Part shown: positions 21,589 to 33,449 of the stretch, in pieces
Layout of the letters: each line of letters begins with the position of its first letter
Position numbering within the stretch: position 1 is the first letter of the stretch
From: Woeseiaceae bacterium
GTDB lineage: Bacteria > Pseudomonadota > Gammaproteobacteria > Steroidobacterales > Woeseiaceae
Direction of reading: 5' to 3'
Assembly (NCBI GenBank): GCA_021773135.1
Contig: JAJFKP010000005.1
Coordinates: 62,001-126,000 of the forward strand
Length of the DNA stretch: 64,000 nt
Program-made: the position numbers and the translations under genes
Notes under the pieces: model-generated
What the model saw: only the letters and a program-made list of their open reading frames with translations
Database searches by the model: none
Told to the model about the DNA's origin: nothing

Positions 21589-22011
21589 TCACTTGCTCGG
21601 AAATTTGACTGAATGGGTTCGAGACTCGCGATATTGCGATTGCCAGTCGCCCAAAATGGCGTGTTCCCAGACCCAAGCTGGTCCTCTTGCGCTGACCACC
21701 CGACTTCCCGGTGCTCCCGAAGACCTGGATCGACACGCCATATTGGGTGGACGAATAGTCCTCAGTTAGCGCGCCAAATGTCAGTGTGTAACAGTATGTA
21801 ACTTGCGAAAAACCGCATAGGTGAGCCGATTACCTCTGATTCAGACTATGGCGAGGTCTAATCGTTGATCGCGATTCCCGGCGCCTGCAAATTACTCAGG
21901 CGACTGAAAATGGGACATCAGCGGGTATTTGATGGGTATTATTTTGGGCAACCGCTAAAATTTATTGAAAGCAGCACACATTTCTGCGGTTTGGCTCATG
22001 GAGGTACACTA
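21589..22011. other. Divergent promoter region between kinase and TPR protein
   Basis: About 420 bases between two divergent genes. It should hold promoters for both. An open frame continues upstream of the TPR gene through part of it, but the strong GGAGG before the ATG at 22012 marks the likely start. I see no clear operator. Confidence 0.45.
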
Positions 22012-24243
22012 ATGCTCGGCAAGCCACCGGAACCAGGCCCGACATCCATGACCGCTTTTCATACGGAGTCCGGACTATCGGTTGCTGAGATCCAGGATCA
22101 ACGCGACCGAATTCTCGCGAGCAAGATATTCTCACGCTCCAAGCGACAGAGCGCCTTTCTTGATCACGTAGTTAACGCAGAACTGGCCGGGCGGGCCGAC
22201 AAACTAAAAGAAATCGCGTTGGGCATTGACGTATTCGAAAAAGATACGTCGTTTAACCCTGGCACAGATCCGATAGTACGGGTTGAGGCTGCTCGGGTAC
22301 GTGCGAAATTACGTGAATACTATGATGAAGACGGTTCGGCTGACCCTATACGCATAGAAATTCCCAAGGGACACTACGTTCCGTTGTTCAGCGCGACCAA
22401 TGCACACAACGAAGTACAGGCGGCGGCGACATTGCGGCGACTCACGAATCGAAAAAGTGTCGTCTTACTGCTGGCTGTGTCAGGAATTGCACTCCTATTA
22501 CTAGCTTTGGTTCGTTACGTGCCAGAAAATAATCTGGTCGGCTCGCGCATCGAACTGCCAGCAGCGGCGCTGGAACAGATTCCAAGAACAGAACGTTCCA
22601 TCGCAGTCCTGCCGTTTCGCAACCGTAGTGCCCTTGCAGACGACGTCTACTTTGTCGATGGCATCCATGATGATATTTTGACTCAGCTGAGTAAGTTGTC
22701 GTCTCTAAATAAAGTCATTTCCAGAACGTCGATGGAGCAGTATCGAGACTCAACGAAGAGTATTCGGGAGATCGGTGCCGAACTTGGCGTGGTGACCGTA
22801 CTCGAAGGCAGTGTGCAGCGCGCCGGAGACCGTGTGCGAATTACTGTGCAATTGATCAATGCAGTCCACGATAAACATCTATGGTCTGAGACCTACGATA
22901 GAGAATTAACGACCCTGAACATTTTTGCGATTCAGAGCGACATTGCATTATCTGTCTCGAAGGCTTTGTATACGACGCTATCGCAGGAAGATCAGAAAGC
23001 ACTTAACTCAATTCCGACGCGAAACCTGCAGGCATACGAATTGTATCAACAAGCCAGGCAAATTCGACGCACACAGGGACTAGGATCGCAGGAGGACATT
23101 CCACGCTTATTGCAGGAGGCCACAACGCTCGATCCGAGCTTCGTCCTTGCTTACGTAGATTTGGCGCGCGCCTATTCGGACCGCTTCTTCACTCTTGAGC
23201 GGGACCCGGCACACCTCGAACTGGCCCGAAATGCCGTCGATAAAGCGTTTGCGTTAAGTCCGAGCATGCCAGAAGTTCGGATAGCGCTTGCCGACTATTA
23301 CTATAAAGGGTCGCTTGATTACGCGCGCGCACTTGAACAGCTGAATTTTGCCATTCCGCAGGCGCGTAGCAATTCTGAGGCCTACGCAATACGGGCCTTC
23401 ATCTTGAGGCGTCGCGGCGATATCGAAGCTGCTATTCCCGACCTTGTTCGTGCTATCGAACTGGATCCAGGCAATTTCTCACCACGCTACGTGCTCGCTG
23501 ACACCTATGCGATCTTGGGTCGTTATGAACAAGCAATCGATCTGTACAACCAATCAATGGAATTGGCCCCTGAAAATTTTGGCTTAAGAATTCTAAAGGC
23601 CTATGCACAGTTGAGTCTGGACGTCAGTTCGTCGGAGTTTACGAACTTTTCTCGTGAATCGTCTTTCGCCGCATATTCCGGACCTGCCACCATTCGATTT
23701 CGGTGGGAAATTGCGATGTTCGAACGGGACTACGAACTTGCAATGGTTACGATCGATTCAAGTGAGTCGGAAATTGTGAACATGCAGTTTGCGTTCTTTC
23801 CATTGGATTTGATGCGTGGCCTTACTGAATTTTACCTGGGTGAAAAAAGCACGGCGACGGAGTTATTTAAGTCGGCAAGTTCGACGTTACAAAGGAGCAT
23901 GCGGGAAATTCCAGATGATCCGCGAATATTTAGCGCACGGTCATTCGCATTGGCGGGCCTCGGCAACCGGGAGGAAGCTATTGAAGCCGCTAGTAAGGCA
24001 GTCGATCTCTATCCTGTAAGCAGCGATGCAGTTGACGGGCCGCTTTATGTGCTCAATTTTGCGAGAACTTATGCAATGCTTGGCGAGCGTGCTGCGGCGA
24101 TAGAGAAACTGAGTGATCTGCTAGCTCGCCCCAGCAATTGGTATGTAAGTCCAAACGTGATCCTGCGCGATCCCGCCTTTGAGGAATTAAAAGAAGAACC
24201 GGATTTCGTTCAATTAATTGAGTTATACATCGATGAGTATTGA
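22012..24243 (+). CDS. Membrane-anchored TolB-like/TPR signalling protein
   Basis: A 743-residue protein. The N-terminal cytoplasmic domain (about residues 18-130) has a pattern often found in proteins annotated as TPR or adenylate-cyclase-like: QRDRILASKIF, KEIALGIDVFEKD, VRVEAARVRAKLREYY, and IPKGHYVPLF. A transmembrane helix follows (about 145-165), then a FlgO/TolB-N-like domain (SIAVLPFRNRSALADDVYFV, VVTVLEGSVQRAGDRVRI) and many TPRs to the C-terminus. The N-terminal domain may bind DNA or a regulator; its function is not established. The ATG at 22012 has GGAGG at 7-8 nt. It is paralogous to the convergent gene at 24393-26375. Confidence 0.85.
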   Translation: MLGKPPEPGPTSMTAFHTESGLSVAEIQDQRDRILASKIFSRSKRQSAFLDHVVNAELAGRADKLKEIALGIDVFEKDTSFNPGTDPIVRVEAARVRAKLREYYDEDGSADPIRIEIPKGHYVPLFSATNAHNEVQAAATLRRLTNRKSVVLLLAVSGIALLLLALVRYVPENNLVGSRIELPAAALEQIPRTERSIAVLPFRNRSALADDVYFVDGIHDDILTQLSKLSSLNKVISRTSMEQYRDSTKSIREIGAELGVVTVLEGSVQRAGDRVRITVQLINAVHDKHLWSETYDRELTTLNIFAIQSDIALSVSKALYTTLSQEDQKALNSIPTRNLQAYELYQQARQIRRTQGLGSQEDIPRLLQEATTLDPSFVLAYVDLARAYSDRFFTLERDPAHLELARNAVDKAFALSPSMPEVRIALADYYYKGSLDYARALEQLNFAIPQARSNSEAYAIRAFILRRRGDIEAAIPDLVRAIELDPGNFSPRYVLADTYAILGRYEQAIDLYNQSMELAPENFGLRILKAYAQLSLDVSSSEFTNFSRESSFAAYSGPATIRFRWEIAMFERDYELAMVTIDSSESEIVNMQFAFFPLDLMRGLTEFYLGEKSTATELFKSASSTLQRSMREIPDDPRIFSARSFALAGLGNREEAIEAASKAVDLYPVSSDAVDGPLYVLNFARTYAMLGERAAAIEKLSDLLARPSNWYVSPNVILRDPAFEELKEEPDFVQLIELYIDEY

Positions 24244-24392: not shown

Positions 24393-26375
24393 TTACCAAT
24401 ACTTACCTGGGTAATCGATGCGTTTCGGAGGTGGCCAGGGAAACCCTGCTTCGTTAATACGGGCCTTGAAATTGGGCGTAGCCTCCAAATCAAATGGCGC
24501 ACCGCAAAAACAACTAAATACGGCATGACTGATCACGACCGAACTTCCTGGGTGCGCATCAATGCGGGCGGCCGCTTCGTTGGCCCTCTCGCGGTCCCCG
24601 ATGACAGCGGCAATCACAATTGAAGAAAGATCATCCGGGTTGGATCCGGACCAGTAGTCGTTGGCCATCTGCCGGGCAACCGCTGGATCACCTGCCAATG
24701 CCTCCCGCAGTATTTGCCGGTCGTATGTCAGTCTACTTGTCTCGCTCCCTGGTCCCCCCACATCCTGATTGTCAATACCGTCAGACGCGAGATACGCCCA
24801 GTAGCGTCCGTCATTCAATGACGAGTGGCTAAGACCTTTGTCATCCGATTCTGCAATAGCTCGCAATGCACCTTTGGAATCACCCGACCAAATGTATGAC
24901 CATGCCAGGTGGAAACTAGCGGAAGTGTCCATAGGATTACACCTGATCGCTTCCCGCCATTTCATGATCAACTGGTCGGCCCAACCGAAAGTGGCAACTA
25001 AAGAGGTCCAGTTCATTTGCGGGCAGCTGCCGGGTTGCAGGGCCCTGTGTATTCGAAATGGCAGACCGGTCCAGTCTTCACTGAACAACGTTCCCTCAAG
25101 ATTGAGGAGGTCGCGTTGGTTGCCGGTTGAGGATAATTTTACGGCCAGGCCATATTCTTCGCGCAATGCCGCAAGAGTCTCGTTTAATTCACCCGGATAA
25201 TTCTCGGCACGAAAACCCGCTACGATTTCAAAGACAACGTGGCCGCGAAGGTCTGCCTTCATCAATCGCGCCATAGTGAGCCCCGGTGCCGCCTCAAGCG
25301 CAATCTCGAAGTGCGAATTGGCAATTTCCAAAGCGTCCGACATAGTAACCCCCTGGTGCGCCGTCACCCACGCCTCTCGTCCCTTCTGATAGGCGATAAA
25401 TGCTTCTACGTCACGTATCTCAGCGCTGCGCATGATTTCTCGCGCTGCGTCGTCGAGCACGACGCCGAGGACCTCAGCGATATTCTCCGCGATGTCTTGC
25501 TGAACGGCGAAAATATCATCGCGCTTCCGATCATAGATTTTTGACCATAGGTGGACGTCGTCCGAAGCGCGGATCAGTTGCGCGGCAATGCGGAGACGGT
25601 CCCCGTCGCGACGGACCGAGCCCTCGACTACATGCGCAACTCCGAGCCGGGAGGCGATTTCAGGAACAAGGAGGTTTTGCCCTTTGAAAAAGAATGCAGA
25701 TGTCCGAGCAGTGACTTGCAATTCAGACAATTGAGCGAGGGAATTCAGGATTTCTTCGGTCAGTCCGTCAGCAAAATAGCCGTCGTCCTCTCCAGACGAT
25801 AGAGGAAGGAATGGGAGCACCGCAATGGATTTGTCGTTAGCGTGCAAGGTGCCTATTTGTTCGGATTCCTCAAGCAAGGTGCTATTTGCCAGTAAATAAA
25901 TGATAGCTGCCGCCATCAATCCCATGGCCGTGACGCTGAATTTACGGCGAGAGTTATGGATGAAAGACCTGGAGCGACTAACGACCTGTTCTTGTTCTAT
26001 ACAATCGGCCCCGTTATCTTGATTAATGAAGCAATAAACGGGGACATAGTGGCCTTTTGGGATTTCGATTCGTACAGGATCGTTTTGGCCTTCCGCGTCA
26101 TAATACTCTCTCAATTTAGAGCGCAATCGACTCGCTTCAACACGCACAATTGAGTCGATGCTCGGATCGAACGAGTCGTCCTTCTCAAATACATCGATAG
26201 CCAGTGTAAACTCTTTGAGGTTGTCCGCCTGGTTTTCTAACTCTGCATTGATGATGTAGCTAAGAAATGCCTTCTGTCGATTAGACAGGGCAAATACGCT
26301 GCTTGTGAGAATTCGATCACGCTGCGCACGAACCTGTGCAGCGGTTGGATTGGAGGCCGGATGATCTTGTGCCAT
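24393..26375 (-). CDS. Membrane-anchored TolB-like/TPR signalling protein, paralogue
   Basis: A 660-residue paralogue of the gene at 22012, with the same order. The N-terminal domain (RAQRDRILTSSVFALSNRQ, VRVEASRLRSKLREYY, IPKGHYVPVY) is followed by a transmembrane helix near residues 148-165. Then come a FlgO/TolB-N-like domain (SIAVLPFLPLSSGEDDGYFA, VAHVVEGSVRRDGDRLRI) and a long, poorly conserved helical C-terminus with few clear TPRs. The two genes face each other with a 150-bp gap. Divergence is concentrated in the periplasmic half, which suggests different ligands with a shared output. Function is unknown. Confidence 0.82.
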   Translation of the reverse strand: MAQDHPASNPTAAQVRAQRDRILTSSVFALSNRQKAFLSYIINAELENQADNLKEFTLAIDVFEKDDSFDPSIDSIVRVEASRLRSKLREYYDAEGQNDPVRIEIPKGHYVPVYCFINQDNGADCIEQEQVVSRSRSFIHNSRRKFSVTAMGLMAAAIIYLLANSTLLEESEQIGTLHANDKSIAVLPFLPLSSGEDDGYFADGLTEEILNSLAQLSELQVTARTSAFFFKGQNLLVPEIASRLGVAHVVEGSVRRDGDRLRIAAQLIRASDDVHLWSKIYDRKRDDIFAVQQDIAENIAEVLGVVLDDAAREIMRSAEIRDVEAFIAYQKGREAWVTAHQGVTMSDALEIANSHFEIALEAAPGLTMARLMKADLRGHVVFEIVAGFRAENYPGELNETLAALREEYGLAVKLSSTGNQRDLLNLEGTLFSEDWTGLPFRIHRALQPGSCPQMNWTSLVATFGWADQLIMKWREAIRCNPMDTSASFHLAWSYIWSGDSKGALRAIAESDDKGLSHSSLNDGRYWAYLASDGIDNQDVGGPGSETSRLTYDRQILREALAGDPAVARQMANDYWSGSNPDDLSSIVIAAVIGDRERANEAAARIDAHPGSSVVISHAVFSCFCGAPFDLEATPNFKARINEAGFPWPPPKRIDYPGKYW

Positions 26376-27173: not shown

Positions 27174-27881
27174 CTATTGCGCCTCTCGGCTATATGCGCG
27201 TATGGCTTCTGCGTCCATCGCACCAAGCTGATTTAGAGCGATAACATAATCGGCCAATACTTGAATTTCGGATTCTGGCAAGGTTTCGAATACAGGCATA
27301 CTGATTTCCTGGCGCTCAATAAAAAACCTGGCGATTGCGCCATCGATCGGGCTTGCCAACAATGCAGGGTCCATACCCTGGCGAATCCAGGTACGTACAG
27401 AGGCAATGCTTCCGTTCCCGGTGAGAAGTCGGAAATCTTTGCCGAAATAGCCGGGAATGTACCCCTTGAACGCACCTTCATTTCGGAAGCCGCCTTGTCC
27501 CAGTTCGCCATGGCATTGGAAGCAATTGTAACGTCGGGCAAGGCGCTCCCCCTGAAGTAAGCTGTTCTGATTCGGCGATGTCGCACGCATTTGAAAAGTC
27601 CGTTTCAGACGTGCTACCTCAAAGTAGGCAAGCACATCGCTGCAACGAGCGCTGTAGTGAGGGTGAGATTCGTCGCTGCTCTTGTTGGTACAAGACAGTT
27701 TGGCGTCATCAGGGAAACCGGCGTCGGGTTTTCCATGGCAATCAATACACCCCCGCGCATTGACGGCAGCGGCACCGCGTTCGGCGGGTGAGCTCTCCGG
27801 AATAAGCCGCGGTCCTTGCGATGCCAGGATCGCGGCAATCACGATTGAACAAACGAGCCCCCCCTTTCGAACCGATAACAT
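27174..27881 (-). CDS. Exported diheme cytochrome c
   Basis: A 235-residue periplasmic cytochrome with an N-terminal signal/anchor segment (about residues 9-25) and two haem c motifs, CIDCH (about residue 45) and CFQCH (about residue 120). Likely axial Met residues are in the later segments (IRQGMD, ISMPVFETLPESEIQVL), and the C-terminal part resembles class I cytochromes with an ADYVIAL helix. It would accept electrons from the cytochrome P460 encoded just upstream and hand them to the respiratory chain. GGAGC precedes the ATG, which lies 12 nt after the P460 stop. Confidence 0.85.
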   Translation of the reverse strand: MLSVRKGGLVCSIVIAAILASQGPRLIPESSPAERGAAAVNARGCIDCHGKPDAGFPDDAKLSCTNKSSDESHPHYSARCSDVLAYFEVARLKRTFQMRATSPNQNSLLQGERLARRYNCFQCHGELGQGGFRNEGAFKGYIPGYFGKDFRLLTGNGSIASVRTWIRQGMDPALLASPIDGAIARFFIERQEISMPVFETLPESEIQVLADYVIALNQLGAMDAEAIRAYSREAQ

Positions 27882-27893
27882 GGATGCTCCGTG

Positions 27894-28477
27894 CTATTTC
27901 GTCGTTTCCAGCACCCGGTAGCCATTCAAGTAAATCCAATCGTATTTACGAGCAGGAATATGACAACCAATGCACTCCGTCTTGTAATTCGTTGTAACAG
28001 AGGAATCAGGTTGGTCGGCAATGAACAATGACCAGCCCCAACCGTCACCCCAAAGTTGATTGGACTGAAATCGACCCTGCGTATCCTTGACCATGACAAA
28101 CCAACCTTCCACCTCTGTCCCTCGGCTCGCAGTTCCGGTCGTCATGGCGCCGGTAACCGCTGTTAATAATTCCTTAACGATCACCGCGCCGTCAGGAAAC
28201 GTTCCGGTCTCGCGAAAGTGTTCAATCGTCGCCCGTTGGGTATACACATTGTGTAGCCCGGCGGCGCCGTGACCACTGGCCGCGCCGCCGGTTTCGACAT
28301 CTTCCTGAGCAATCGACCACGTGCCGAGAAATGCCCAGTCACGTGAAAATTTTCTGGCAGAGATATGTTGCCGAACGGGTCGACGATTGTTTTGTACGTT
28401 CCTTGCAATGTGTCATCACTGTTGGCGGTGGCGCATATCAGGAGTGCTGCGAGGGTGATCGGTTTCTTCATATACAT
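27894..28477 (-). pseudogene. Cytochrome P460 gene with a single frameshift
   Basis: Two overlapping frames together give one complete cytochrome P460. The first runs from the ATG at 28477 (signal peptide MKKPITLAALLICATANS) to SLPENFH. The second continues WAFLGTWSIAQEDVETGG through to CIGCH (haem c motif) and a C-terminal LNGYRVLETTK. The break is at about 28340-28345: CACGTGACTGG would read HRDW, the usual family wording, if one more C were present. So one base was lost, either in the genome or in sequencing. P460 enzymes oxidise hydroxylamine or bind NO in the periplasm. Confidence 0.8.
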
Positions 28478-28588: not shown

Positions 28589-29227
28589 CTATTCCTTGCC
28601 ACCAATGCCGGCAGCGTCATCGCCGGCAGCCTTGGCATCTCTTAAGATTGTGTAGTACTGCGTAAACACCATGTCCTCAGCTGCCGCGGCTGTATGACAT
28701 GCGGCGCATGCAGCTATGGGCATTGCCGCAGTGGTGTCATTGTATGGCTCGGGTTTGTGGCCAAACGTGTAGTAAGCCCAGCCATCGCTGTCCGCTGAGT
28801 AACGTTCGGTGTCCTTGTGTGCGATCTCAAATCCCTGCTGCTCGCCGTTGAAATAGCCAATACCACTGGTCGCCGCCGTATCGCCAACTAGAGTCAGTTC
28901 TTTGGCAAACATCGTGCCGTTACGAAACTCGCCGGTATCCTTGTAGTGTTCCCAGCTCTCGGGGTCGATGTAGACAGTGTGAAACTCTGGGAATGGCGCT
29001 TCGCCACCGTTCTGAGCATTCGGTGTCAATGGACTCCCAACAAAAATCCACTCACGCCATCCCGATGGTCTGACGAGCTCACCAGTTGCAGTGAACTCGG
29101 CGTCGTACTGTTGCGTATCGTCAGCGTCAACGACAGCTGTCCCCAGCAGCAGATAAATTACTGAAACAACCAGAGTCTGCGAAACGCCCTGTGGGCGTTG
29201 AATACGACTGTTGAATATCGATCTCAT
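28589..29227 (-). CDS. Cytochrome P460 family protein
   Basis: A 212-residue exported cytochrome P460. An N-terminal signal segment (about residues 17-36) is followed by the beta-rich P460 fold (WREWIFVGSPLTP, PEFHTVYIDPESWEHYKDTGEF, FAKELTLVGD) and the haem c motif CAACH near residue 175. P460 haem has an extra Lys cross-link in characterised members; a candidate Lys is in FAKEL. The activity is oxidation of hydroxylamine with NO, or NO handling. GGGAG precedes the ATG. The promoter carries the 21-bp palindrome centred 69 bp upstream. Confidence 0.88.
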   Translation of the reverse strand: MRSIFNSRIQRPQGVSQTLVVSVIYLLLGTAVVDADDTQQYDAEFTATGELVRPSGWREWIFVGSPLTPNAQNGGEAPFPEFHTVYIDPESWEHYKDTGEFRNGTMFAKELTLVGDTAATSGIGYFNGEQQGFEIAHKDTERYSADSDGWAYYTFGHKPEPYNDTTAAMPIAACAACHTAAAAEDMVFTQYYTILRDAKAAGDDAAGIGGKE

Positions 29228-29285
29228 GTCTATCTCCCAATGTGATGTGAGAGTCAGACAGTAGCGAGATAATCGCGTAAATCTC

Positions 29286-29306
29286 AGTATCTAACGGTTA
29301 GTAACT
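29286..29306. promoter_or_regulatory. 21-bp palindromic operator candidate, site A
   Basis: Left arm AGTATCTAAC, one-base spacer, right arm GTTAGTAACT. It lies 59-79 bp upstream of the P460 start codon and matches sites B (31019) and C (33429). Confidence 0.75.
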
Positions 29307-29499
29307 CCAAGAGTTGCAACGGATCCGTATGCTGCAACCTGGATTCAGCCTCCATAACTAAATATCTTGCCAAATGCTCCCGATATCTCCGTCAATAGCG
29401 ATTCGTTTGTCAACACTTAGAAACTTAAGTGCGCTTGGACACGCCTTTAAGATCCTCCAGAAGGATCAGTTAGCTACACTCCGATGGTGGGCAAGCCAC

Positions 29500-30001
29500 A
29501 TGATCAAGACCAACACACCAGGCAGTTACATCATCGCCGCACTGACCGGGATCTTCTGCCCTTGCGTTTCTGCACATACGCAGCACGGAAAAAACCCTCA
29601 ATTACCCACAGGGCTACCGTTCCTGGCAGCACGTCAAGACAATGATCATACAGCCAGGTCACGCGCTGGACGTTCCGTTCGGCGAGATTCATCACATATA
29701 CGCAAATGCAAAAGCGATGAGTGGCCTGAACGGCAGTCAATATGCGGACGGCGCGGTTTTCGTATTCGACCTTCTGGACTATGACATTATCAGCAGCGTC
29801 ATCGTCGAGACGGAGCGCAAACGCATAGATGTAATGCAATTCGATATAGAACGGTTTGCGGACACCGGTGGCTGGGGCTTCGCGTCCATTGTAGGTGACA
29901 GCAGGACGGACCGGGTTGAGCAAGACGTCGTCACAGCCTGTTATAACGGCCACGAAACTGCAAAAGAAACGGGCTACATATATAGTCAGTATCGACCGTG
30001 A
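29500..30001 (+). pseudogene. Decayed cytochrome P460 gene
   Basis: An ATG at 29500 opens a signal peptide (MIKTNTPGSYIIAALTG...) that stays in frame only to about 29600. The P460 domain then continues in another frame: NYPQGYRSWQHVKTMII, HHIYANAKAM, ADGAVFVFDLL, and ends YIYSQYRP. The shift is near an A6 run at about 29588-29594. The haem motif reads CYNGH, so the second cysteine of CxxCH is lost. A frameshift plus a missing haem ligand indicate real decay. It is the only P460 copy on the plus strand. Confidence 0.75.
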
Positions 30002-30449
30002 CAAAGGCAATTCAATCGGTCCGCCAATAGCTCACCACTGTACAGATAGGTCGTCGACAATTTGAGGGAATGAAAGCGTCGATCACGTACGCATCAGCAA
30101 TACAGTTGTGCCGATCTGGCCCAAGCCGGGCAGAATGAAACCCGCGAACATGAGCACCAGGCATCCCCAGAATATACAGCTGTCAATCACGTCCGCGTCG
30201 CCGTGTACAACGAAACTGTGCCGTTGGGCGCCCAAGGACGAGTGACGCGGTCGACGAGCGGGCCCGATCATTGCGGTTGGAAAATAATCCATCTGGGCGC
30301 ATACAAAGTACGCGCTGTCGGTTGCATGACTGCTCCCTGCCAGGCTGCGATGAGCACAAACCGAGGCACGGGTTTCCTGGTGATCGTGAGCCAAAGTTAA
30401 TGCCAGGAAACCCGAGGACCCCGCCCGCTGGTTTAAATGAAGTTGGTTT
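30002..30449. other. Intergenic, no gene recognised
   Basis: About 450 bases. A minus-strand frame ending at 30083 closes with one hydrophobic stretch (CIFWGCLVLMFAGFILPG) but the rest looks random and it has no good start. It may be a remnant of a small membrane protein. Confidence 0.35.
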
Positions 30450-30926
30450 TTAGTCTTCAATTTCAACGATGTCTGGTCGCAAACTGCCAATGATTGCCAT
30501 GAGTTCGTTGAACTCCCTTTCCGGTACGTTGAATTTGTTCAACGTGTCGACAAGATGCTGGGCGACGATGTCGAATTCGCTCGCCTTTATGCCGAGACCG
30601 CCGTGTGTGGTCGCCGCCGAACGGCTGATAATCTTGCAAGGACCGCCGGTGGCAGCACAGACAAGATTCTTGTTCTTCTGCCGAAATCCCTCGCGGGAGT
30701 CATCGCTCATACCAAAGAATCTCGCGCCGACTATCGGATCGTCGAAAAGTTTGGGGGCAAAGTCATCTATTACCGCTGAGACGGCTTCGTATCCACCGAG
30801 GCGCTCATATAGCGATTTCTCAACGTTCGAGTCGGCAACTGCTGATTGCACCAAAGACACACCGATCATCAGTGCCACGAAAATCGCTGCCAGATCGAGA
30901 ATTGTCGATAAATGTCGGTTTCGCAT
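30450..30926 (-). CDS. Exported truncated haemoglobin (group I type)
   Basis: A 158-residue protein with a signal peptide (about residues 1-30, ending SAVADS) followed by a truncated-globin fold. Seen are SLYERLGGYEAVSAVIDDF, FDDPIVGARFFG, a loop with CAATGGPC, and THGGLGIKASEFDIVAQHL, in which the proximal His is expected. Truncated haemoglobins bind O2 or NO; group I members are known for NO dioxygenation. A periplasmic location with P460 neighbours suggests NO or hydroxylamine defence. The ATG at 30926 has AGGAG upstream. The 21-bp palindrome is centred 103 bp upstream. Confidence 0.88.
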   Translation of the reverse strand: MRNRHLSTILDLAAIFVALMIGVSLVQSAVADSNVEKSLYERLGGYEAVSAVIDDFAPKLFDDPIVGARFFGMSDDSREGFRQKNKNLVCAATGGPCKIISRSAATTHGGLGIKASEFDIVAQHLVDTLNKFNVPEREFNELMAIIGSLRPDIVEIED

Positions 30927-31018
30927 GTTCTTCTCCTTTCTGTCGACCAACCGGGCCAACTGTGATTGCAAGATGAGTGTTCGCGAACAAGTTTGGTTGG
31001 TTGGGGGGGGCTAACATC

Positions 31019-31039
31019 AGTTTCTAACTGTTAGTAACT
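31019..31039. promoter_or_regulatory. 21-bp palindromic operator candidate, site B
   Basis: Left arm AGTTTCTAAC, spacer T, right arm GTTAGTAACT. It lies 93-113 bp upstream of the truncated-haemoglobin start and its right arm is identical to that of site A. Confidence 0.75.
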
Positions 31040-32020
31040 CTCCGATTCGCATTAATTCTTTAGTAGAGAAGGCTTCCCTGGAGGCTTGCGGGTCCCGGAC
31101 CAATTGACCGAGCCCGATCTGGTTAAGGCATCTCCTTATTTGGGGATCAATCGAATGATCCTCGAGCCCGTACCTAACTGGTATAAATGGGCGCGAGGTG
31201 CTCAGCGGGTGACTAGTATCCAGCGGTCGATGCGCATACCGGCCCGCAAGAGCCAAATGTCCTGGTTCAGTGATAATTTGCTGCCTCGTCGGTACAACCT
31301 AAGCGGAGCCGGTACAGTTGGAATAAAACGAATGCCTGCCGCAGAGCAAGGCACCGCTATTTCAATGCAAGACCATCGGCCAATATAGGAGTGAAATCGG
31401 TATTTTCTACCCGGTAGGGCGACTCGTTACCCAGGTGACATTTACCGGCAACGTGGCTGTTGAAGTCATGCTTATGGCGCAGATCTGAAGGATGAATTCC
31501 GCGAGTTTCATACACCTGTCTTCATGCGGAAAGTGAATGCGACCAGGGCCGACGCGACTGTCGAATCGGCTGGATATCAATTGATGCGCACACAGGCGCG
31601 TACATCGCCCTCGCAGTCTCAGCGGCCAGTTTTTCAAGTTCAGTTGTTCGAATCGACGGGCAGCAGTCGCCACCAGATTCGCCATGCGGCCGTTACTAAA
31701 TCTCGCCTAAATTCAGGAGCAGCCGTCAGGCATTTAGTTCTCCTCTAACATTGACAATTGATTGCAACGCCCATGCAGTCGACGCGCTGCGAGGCTTATG
31801 GGCGGAGGTCGCCAAGAAAATATCGGACGAATTACAGCAGAATCCGGCATGCGGGGTTGTATCACGCCTCGAAGCCGTCGGTGAACGATGACTGTTGTGA
31901 CGTCGGTTCCAGAACCCGGGAATTGCTTTATTCTCTAAGAAATTGAATCGAAGTCGAAACTGTGGCCGAGTTTGCGCAACTGCTGTTGCGTTGATTTTAT
32001 GGGTAGGCGTCGAGATCTGG
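31040..32020. other. Long intergenic region, probably decayed
   Basis: About 980 bases with only short, unrecognised frames on both strands and no convincing start sites. It lies inside the haem-protein region and may be the remains of lost genes. Confidence 0.4.
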
Positions 32021-32827
32021 TCAGTCAATTGAGTCTTGGCCAATCGAATTCGTTTGCGAGCTTTTCGGTTTCGACAATTCTGTCATGAACCACATCTGGT
32101 ACAGACTCGCGAGAATCATAATTGCTGATGCTACTGAATATCCAATTCCTCCCAAAAGAGTAAGGATCGCAAAGTCCGGGTACCACTTGGTGAGCCACCA
32201 CGACAACACGTCCACAAGCAGGAACACAAAAGGTGTGATGATTAGCACACCCTGTACCCAGGGCTGGAAGCCAACCGTCTGAGCAAAAATGTAGCCGACG
32301 AAAAAGAATATAAATGCGATTCCGAACAGATGGATATGTGACACTCGTGCCAATGCATCGACTGTCGTACCGGTATCAATTGCCGCAGACGGGAGGACTC
32401 CCTCATAGGTCGTGAAAGACGGTAGCGCCGGAATTACGCTGTGGCAACTAACGCAGTACTGATCGAAATGCTCACCCATGCCACCGTCCCATTCGTCGCG
32501 CGATGCGCCCAGCTGCACCCAACGGATAATCGCGCGCCGAGTTTCGATCGGTGCCTTGTCCTGCATCGATCCATTCAACTTGGATTCGAGTTTGCTGTTA
32601 CTGCGATTTCCGTAGTAGCTGTAGACGATGTCGTCGAGCGATATACCAAACCTGCCATCGGCCATGCCGTGCGTCAGAAGAATCTGAGCACCTGCCATGA
32701 GGAGGCCGACACCAATGACGAGCAGGTAGCCTGTGTACAGCAATCGAGTGGGAAGATTGCGTTCCGGGAGTCGCTGCAAATGGTCGACGTGCCTGGATAA
32801 TCCTGATCCAGTTCGGATTGCGTTCAT
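32021..32827 (-). CDS. Membrane-bound c-type cytochrome, function unknown
   Basis: A 268-residue protein. An N-terminal helix (about residues 30-50) precedes a periplasmic part with one haem c motif CVSCH (near residue 125). Four to five helices follow, with a HIHLFGIAFIFFFVGYIF segment that could supply histidine ligands for haem b or interact with quinone. I do not recognise a named family. It overlaps the PagL-like gene by 4 nt (ATGA), so both share the promoter with the palindrome and the FNR-type box. A role in passing electrons from or to a haem partner is an inference. Confidence 0.78.
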   Translation of the reverse strand: MNAIRTGSGLSRHVDHLQRLPERNLPTRLLYTGYLLVIGVGLLMAGAQILLTHGMADGRFGISLDDIVYSYYGNRSNSKLESKLNGSMQDKAPIETRRAIIRWVQLGASRDEWDGGMGEHFDQYCVSCHSVIPALPSFTTYEGVLPSAAIDTGTTVDALARVSHIHLFGIAFIFFFVGYIFAQTVGFQPWVQGVLIITPFVFLLVDVLSWWLTKWYPDFAILTLLGGIGYSVASAIMILASLYQMWFMTELSKPKSSQTNSIGQDSID

Positions 32828-33357
32828 TCACGCGCACCCACCGACCAGCTTAACCCAATCATATCCAACCCCGGGTTAGGGCTATTCAAGCCGCCATTTG
32901 ATGTGTGTTGAATTCGTAAAGAAACCGTTGTCCTCCCGCGATGCCCTAAATTGAGGCCTAATGCCAGCGAGGATGTGAAATGAAAATTACCGCCAAGTCT
33001 CCGGCCATCAAATGATGAACCGCTTAATAGCGTGGGACTGATACCGAAATCGATATACGAACGTCGATTCCAGAGCGGCCATCGCCACGTTGGCCCAAAT
33101 GAAACGAAAGCTTCGCGATTGGCTCGGCTCGCAATTGAGCCGATGGCGAGCTCCAGATCTGCAATTGCAACTACGGATGGAGCACGGAGGCTAAATGATG
33201 CACCGACCTGAAACGTATCGCTAAATTGGCCGCCGCCAAAGCTCAACCGATAGACTGGCGACGAGATGCTGGCACCGTTCGCATTGAAAGCAATCATTGG
33301 GATTGTAATAATCAGAATGCCGTGAAGGATCCGGTTTTTTGAATTTGGTTGTCGCAT
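32824..33357 (-). CDS. PagL-like outer-membrane lipid A deacylase candidate
   Basis: A 177-residue exported protein with a signal peptide (cleavage likely after NANGA, near residue 29) and alternating beta-strand pattern of a small outer-membrane barrel. The C-terminal block RIQHTSNGG...NPGLDMIGL resembles the active site of acyloxyacyl hydrolases of the PagL family, which use a His-Ser-Glu triad. The His and Ser are present, but the position expected for Glu appears to be Asp. PagL trims a 3-O-acyl chain from lipid A. GAGG precedes the ATG. Its pairing with a cytochrome gene is unexpected. Confidence 0.6.
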   Translation of the reverse strand: MRQPNSKNRILHGILIITIPMIAFNANGASISSPVYRLSFGGGQFSDTFQVGASFSLRAPSVVAIADLELAIGSIASRANREAFVSFGPTWRWPLWNRRSYIDFGISPTLLSGSSFDGRRLGGNFHFTSSLALGLNLGHRGRTTVSLRIQHTSNGGLNSPNPGLDMIGLSWSVGARE

Positions 33358-33403
33358 CGACCTGTCCTCATGTCCGTTTGTAGCTTCCCGGATTTAGAAA
33401 ATA

Positions 33404-33417
33404 TTGATCGATATCAA
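33404..33417. promoter_or_regulatory. FNR/Dnr-type binding box
   Basis: TTGATCGATATCAA is a perfect TTGAT-N4-ATCAA match, the consensus for FNR, ANR and Dnr regulators. It is centred about 53 bp upstream of the PagL-like start codon and next to palindrome site C. This suggests control by oxygen or NO. Confidence 0.65.
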
Positions 33418-33428
33418 GAAGGGTCTGA

Positions 33429-33449
33429 AGTTAGTAACGGTTAGTTACT
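33429..33449. promoter_or_regulatory. 21-bp palindromic operator candidate, site C
   Basis: Left arm AGTTAGTAAC, spacer G, right arm GTTAGTTACT. It lies 72-92 bp upstream of the PagL-like gene, with the FNR-type box between it and the gene. Confidence 0.72.

Follow-up and report, generated by a model that had tools for sequence, protein, structure and literature searches.

Genes and putative operator sites at the locus

The window analyzed here is the whole 64,000-nucleotide stretch of contig JAJFKP010000005.1 from a Woeseiaceae bacterium. It carries a small set of near-identical sites, interpreted below as operators, in front of genes for cytochrome P460, a truncated haemoglobin (tHb) and a membrane cytochrome, together with two genes for putative membrane-bound regulators. 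Their window positions are as follows.

29286 to 29306, no strand given: putative operator before P460A and also before the divergent, decayed P460C, by pattern match; locus L022 has a site at the equivalent place before P460A and P460C
31019 to 31039, no strand given: putative operator before tHb, centre at -103, by pattern match; the centre is at -100 to -102 at tHb in five other gammaproteobacterial loci
33429 to 33449, no strand given: putative operator before the PagL-like/membrane cytochrome pair, centre at -82, by pattern match
21784 to 21802, + strand: fourth, diverged putative operator with 0 mismatches to GTNNSTWACNGTNNSTWAC, 264 bp upstream of the point where the second regulator gene is inferred to begin
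24393 to 26375, - strand: most likely cognate regulator (main regulator), 660 amino acids, with a predicted winged helix (amino acids 12 to 116), transmembrane (TM) helix (146 to 164) and CadC-like periplasmic domain with TPR-like helices
22048 to 24243, + strand: second regulator of the same family (paralogue), start inferred from alignment
28589 to 29227, - strand: cytochrome P460 (P460A), CXXCH present; PF16694 at E = 8e-27, N. europaea P460 chains at E = 2e-48
29258 to 29263, - strand: -10-like TACTGT of the P460A promoter, 22 nt past the site, from a TANNNT spacing scan
27894 to 28477, - strand: second P460-family gene (P460B), split over two frames, from a family match and comparison with relatives
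27174 to 27881, - strand: cytochrome c, last gene of the P460 operon, from a family match and locus comparison
29500 to 30001, + strand: third P460-family gene (P460C), divergent and frameshifted, from comparison with relatives
30450 to 30926, - strand: group-1-like tHb, close to the group-1 haemoglobin HbN, with an N-terminal signal-like stretch (by eye)
32824 to 33357, - strand: PagL-like lipid A deacylase, PF09411 at 4e-23
32021 to 32827, - strand: membrane protein with one CVSCH haem motif and no Pfam family; a 74% identical relative lies near tHb in L082

The three near-identical 21-bp sites at 29286, 31019 and 33429 match the originally described palindromic pattern on the + strand with 0 mismatches, and their centres lie 69, 103 and 82 bp upstream of the ATG codons at 29227, 30926 and 33357, as had been claimed. 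With up to 3 mismatches allowed, this pattern gave 7 matches (4 places) in the window, compared with 0.02 expected in shuffles. In the strain's own 4.55-Mb genome, matches to AGTWASTAACNGTTASTWACT at up to 3 mismatches were the three places alone, and the reversed control gave 2 rows per strand. Exact matches to GTNNSTWACNGTNNSTWAC were found in the genome at four places, namely, the same three and 21784 to 21802. At up to 1 mismatch, the reversed control for GTNNSTWACNGTNNSTWAC (14/15 rows) exceeded the pattern itself (6/5 rows), indicating that the 1-mismatch matches are background; this control figure applies to up to 1 mismatch and not to 0 mismatches.

The original prediction that the window holds no equally good further copy held for AGTWASTAACNGTTASTWACT at up to 3 mismatches, but the looser GTNNSTWACNGTNNSTWAC added the diverged copy at 21784, which had not been listed. 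The weak half site reported near 26.8 kb was not recovered, as the window-wide search at up to 3 mismatches gave no match there. The genome-wide check that had been proposed came out as hoped, with matches near a regulator gene and near haem/NO-type (nitric oxide) genes. The matches are very few, however: the four sites, together with the sole two detected members of the regulator family, all lie within one 12-kb cluster.

The term palindrome describes the sites in part. Their actual form is two quasi-palindromic GTN5AC units with one base between them (GTN5AC-N-GTN5AC). For 47 hand-collected sites, the direct-repeat similarity was 6.68 versus 6.03 in shuffles, and the inverted similarity was 6.47 versus 6.30 (P = 0.15). 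The strongest covariation was between inverted partners (positions 7-13 and 4-16). A pure direct-repeat reading was considered: direct similarity is above shuffles, yet covariation peaks at the inverted partners. Kinship among the sites confounds both measures, and either symmetry may apply.

In P460A, the CXXCH motif and the lysine of the KEL segment are conserved with N. europaea P460; we take this residue to be the haem cross-linking lysine. The frame break of P460B lies at 28346 to 28352 (- strand), near a AAAATTTT run, and may reflect either a sequencing error or a pseudogene. P460C is decaying, with a frameshift near an A-run and CYNGH in place of the CXXCH of its relatives (CFACH or CYGCH). 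An NO or hydroxylamine theme is plausible because of the target families only, and PagL and the membrane cytochrome suggest the envelope side.

Sequence and predicted fold of the regulators

The regulator had been predicted to lie outside the window. Instead, the window encodes two CadC-type regulators, at 22048 to 24243 and 24393 to 26375, and relatives of the latter adjoin the haem module in several genomes. They are the two members of the family detected in the genome.

The N-terminal model of the main regulator (pLDDT 89.7) consists of four helices and a C-terminal hairpin. In VIA comparisons, the top 15 rows were response-regulator DNA-binding domains with Z scores of 6.0 to 7.5 (PrrA, 7.5; PhoB, 6.3), and the DNA-binding domain of E. 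coli CadC (5ju7) reached a Z of 5.6. As modeled, the DNA-binding domain resembles an OmpR/PhoB winged helix. A TM helix was predicted, by hydropathy only, at residues 146 to 164 of the main regulator, and a helix starting at residues 100 to 320 was predicted in 49 of 80 relatives; of the other 31, without a TM helix call, four had been read in the wrong frame (up to 10 residues).

For the periplasmic model (pLDDT 82), Foldseek ranks 1 to 4 were CadC (3ly7-3lya; E = 7e-7 to 3.5e-6), followed by TolB. With VIA, CadC (Z 13.7 over 292 residues) tied with TolB (Z 14.0 over 131 residues). The NCBIfam CadC model NF007540 matched the main regulator at E = 0.005 and the paralogue at 1.8e-9. These matches reached only 15.7 and 37 bits, respectively, compared with the equivalog cut-off of 400 bits (lysine decarboxylase activator). 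The models suggest that the main regulator works like a CadC-type regulator, yet it is not a CadC equivalog. In Pfam scans up to E = 10, the main regulator gave 0 families, and the 25 families shown of the paralogue's 27 included no class III adenylate cyclase domain; this cyclase scan covered the window regulators and not the rhizobial proteins.

Haem module and sites in related genomes

Among 107 genomes of the family, sites with at most 1 mismatch occurred only in G011, G048 and the strain's own genome. They were thus present in 3/3 genomes with a haem-type regulator versus 0/104 others (Fisher, 5e-6); any member of the regulator family was found in 9/107. G011 has adjacent genes for the regulator, P460C, P460A, P460B and cytochrome c, and tHb and PagL with a second site lie about 395 kb off. 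G048 has two sites, and its P460 genes are separated from tHb by two regulators. A search of 396 genomes of the order found orthologues of tHb (E below 1e-60) in these three genomes alone. Another three genomes have 35 to 40% identical tHb matches, and their loci contain no exact GTN5AC-N-GTN5AC.

The combination of regulator, tHb, P460 genes and sites recurs in other Gammaproteobacteria, and regulator, tHb and weaker sites recur in three Alphaproteobacteria. A site precedes tHb in 8/8 other module loci tested, the three alphaproteobacterial ones having the weaker sites; the tHb start codons of L088, L110 and L142 were approximated, and the second globin gene of L088 (34% identical) was left out. 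A site precedes linked P460A in 4/7 loci. Among six other P460A loci, a site is missing from five (L067, L068, L069, L072 and L073); the match in the sixth, L074, is weak (9.8) but scores above its 100 shuffles. In two Pseudohongiella loci (L082 and L087), two operators stand in tandem 35 bp apart, before tHb and before P460A.

In six gammaproteobacterial genomes (~29 Mb), all 14 places that matched a stricter pattern with at most 1 mismatch lie before module genes; the reversed control had 2 rows. Thirteen of these places were already known when the pattern was written, and the remaining one precedes a P460A-P460B-cytC operon. The same pattern had 0 matches in the three alphaproteobacterial genomes. 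The proposed haem regulon is supported by the presence of this kind of site before tHb and P460 genes of other genera, and by its absence away from them in the six gammaproteobacterial genomes, but the inclusion of PagL is weakly supported outside the strain's own genome. The strong site of G011 stands more than 500 bp away from PagL and only a weak match is closer; the second G011 PagL gene has none within 300 bp.

Most 3-mismatch matches in the family genomes were rejected as background, since reversed controls were equally frequent; the 3-mismatch matches of G047 and G049 stand right before family regulators. The 2-mismatch match of G005 falls inside a coding frame and was rejected as an operator.

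Promoter geometry

A TANNNT box was located exactly 22 nt past the site in 10 of 52 oriented sites, compared with 0.75 expected from shuffles that preserve base composition only; the next best offset had 3. Of these ten sites, nine belong to the 18 haem-target orientations, which include mutual homologues, and the tenth belongs to the 34 others. In addition to TACTGT of the window P460A promoter, the newly found P460A promoter of OFTM154 (L193) has TAACGT at the identical offset. The centre of the tHb site lies 100 to 103 bp before the start codon in six gammaproteobacterial loci, including the window.

This spacing would centre the operator near -45, over the -35 position, a placement that fits an activator. 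A repressor or anti-silencer, rather than a class II activator, could also act at these operators: the operator directly adjoins the core promoter, a position from which a bound protein could also obstruct polymerase, and the sites upstream of regulator genes lie at variable distances of 36 to 257 bp. However, judged by eye, the site is followed by a poor -35 sequence, and the constant -10 spacing in 9/18 haem-target orientations is as in activator-dependent promoters. CadC itself is an activator according to PMC5430869. Repression or anti-silencing is considered unlikely.

An eight-G run (C on the tHb strand) is present at 31003 to 31010, between the tHb operator and the start codon, right before the -10 position of other tHb promoters.

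The operator across the regulator family

A collection scan with two peptide patterns yielded 229 regulator relatives, from which 80 named loci were used, some of them near-duplicates (e.g., L154/L158). The exact GTN5AC-N-GTN5AC was found upstream of 22/80 regulators, compared with 0.5% in shuffles preserving base composition only and 1.5% in other windows of these loci. With any other unit gap from 0 to 15, the best result was 2 loci for gap 2 (0.4 expected). A matrix built from the three window sites alone was applied to the 300 bp upstream of 74 non-Woeseiaceae regulators, the six Woeseiaceae loci being purposely excluded. In this test, 21 upstream regions scored at the 99th percentile of shuffles versus 0.7 expected. 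Regulators preceded by the operator occur in, e.g., Methylotenera, Solibacter, Hyphomicrobium, Porticoccaceae and Rhizobiales. Read by eye, the genes next to the regulator in rhizobia and other lineages are not haem genes.

Alternatively, a palindrome-binding regulator of another kind (e.g., TetR, MarR or Rrf2), with its gene elsewhere, could use the sites as operators, and the CadC-like gene would be a mere neighbour. Near-perfect 21-bp palindromes are typical of soluble dimeric repressors, and the main CadC-like gene has no site upstream of itself. However, the same kind of motif precedes CadC-like family members in distant classes with other neighbours, an unsystematic reading by eye of the G011 and G048 gene lists showed no other evident shared regulator, and the spacing to the -10 box suits an activator near -45. 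We consider this explanation improbable. That the sites are non-regulatory, as a chance cluster or a small dispersed repeat, is practically negligible in probability: there are just four copies in the genome, in one 12-kb region, but 0.02 were expected in the window and the same genes are preceded by sites in several genera. A dispersed repeat was rejected with only four genome copies.

GTANNTTACNGTAANNTAC is the candidate binding pattern for a rhizobial family member. The rhizobial operator form was found at 7 places in three genomes (reversed control, 0), and the sole previously unseen place precedes another family regulator. Among plasmid records, 188 match a rhizobial member over 80% or more of its length and 547 have any match. 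The annotation "adenylate cyclase" is carried by 17 of 25 listed rhizobial plasmid relatives, and one listed plasmid has 9 matching places. In Rhizobiales loci L113, L154 and L158, sites precede a lipoprotein-like gene directly after the regulator, and in L148 similar sites precede a formylglycine-enzyme-like gene (functions by eye). A further G047-type site, the second, at L072:9680-9698 (G047 C33), precedes the gene for a 209-amino-acid membrane protein without a confident Pfam family, about 8 kb from a family regulator.

In the tree, the haem set falls into two clades, one gammaproteobacterial (support, 100/99; 9/10 rows module-labelled, both window paralogues counted) and one alphaproteobacterial (99/91; 3/3); the module label was assigned by hand from the locus comparison. 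Alignment A2 contained 61 of the 80 loci and two window rows, one beginning 46 residues too early, and alignment A3 contained 19 loci and two window rows. Among the papers listed in literature searches, none dealt with the regulator family; the motif letters were not among the things searched.

Proposed regulation of the haem regulon

On computational grounds, the sites are probably operators of a CadC/ToxR-type membrane one-component activator that controls a local haem regulon. The computed evidence comprises the sites and how rare they are, synteny, their association with the regulator family, the spacing within promoters and the predicted folds; from it, we infer DNA binding, activation and a signal as follows. 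The cognate protein would most likely be the 24393 to 26375 product, possibly also the paralogue. Its cytoplasmic winged helix may bind two GTN5AC units spaced by one helical turn. The operator would replace the -35 element, with the TANNNT -10 box 22 nt downstream, and the regulator would probably act as an activator of the class II type. A cue, plausibly linked to NO, hydroxylamine or the envelope, may be sensed by the periplasmic CadC/TolB-like and TPR part, and the regulator would then switch on the periplasmic haem proteins.

Several results weigh against this model. On the protein side, the best Foldseek match of the DNA-binding model is weak (E = 0.41), its VIA Z scores of 5.6 to 7.5 are middling (under 8), and no sequence profile (Pfam, or a profile of the domain against solved structures) ties the domain to OmpR/PhoB. 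The haem-type regulator of L082 has no TM helix at the hydropathy cut-off used. On the DNA side, about 450 bp upstream of the main regulator's start contain no site even at up to 6 mismatches, and the exact GTN5AC-N-GTN5AC is absent upstream of 58/80 regulators. The regulators of L082, L084 and L087 have weak upstream matches only (shuffle p, 0.05 to 0.07), and no site precedes the gene of the second L024 regulator. Sites are also absent before the alphaproteobacterial P460A genes (0/3 have one), P460C of L024 and P460B of L087. Half of the haem-target orientations (9/18) lack TANNNT at +22; the window tHb promoter has none at this offset, and the window PagL promoter has a TANNNT at +25.

With moderate confidence, we propose more broadly that the regulators form a large, mostly unnamed CadC-type family in Pseudomonadota and Acidobacteriota, whose rhizobial members are often called "adenylate cyclase." The family would combine a divergent winged helix with a family-wide operator, GTN5AC-N-GTN5AC, and different local regulons per lineage. 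In one lineage, a family member would serve as a dedicated switch in the membrane that controls periplasmic haemoglobin and P460 haem proteins, giving an NO/hydroxylamine-response circuit of a new kind. The proposal links a DNA-binding domain that has no name to a specific operator, across classes and phyla. If true, the local regulons of many uncharacterized regulators could be read from sequence. A further outcome is a testable circuit for the control of periplasmic tHb and P460, whose regulation is, to our knowledge, little known outside NsrR/FNR-type systems.

Comparison with known systems

NsrR, NnrR/FNR and NorR control NO genes. Their consensus sequences presumably differ from the window motif, as the original prediction had stated for NsrR and FNR, and NsrR/FNR-type control was rejected on this difference.

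Sister P460 operons without the operator site have the same genes and a different regulator. In place of the CadC-like gene and site, L067 (G048 C24) and L068 (G047 C69) carry a two-component system that is transcribed divergently from P460A-P460B-cytC; its sensor kinase and its response regulator were recognized by eye.

The regulator is like E. coli CadC in its predicted order of winged helix, TM helix and periplasmic alpha/beta domain plus helical domain, in the four best Foldseek matches of its periplasmic model and in its weak NCBIfam CadC matches. It differs in that its DNA-binding domain has no Pfam match and a Z of only 5.6 to CadC 5ju7. The sites of CadC, an activator, are AT-rich with the consensus T-T-A-x4-T, according to PMC5430869, whereas the operator here is GTN5AC-N-GTN5AC and the targets are haem proteins.

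The predicted fold of the DNA-binding model resembles that of PhoB at a middling score (Z 6.3; PrrA, 7.5). In contrast to PhoB, which has an 11-bp period, the period here is 10 bp, and no receiver domain was seen in the regulator. The operator itself is like the pho box in having two units about one turn apart in the -35 place.

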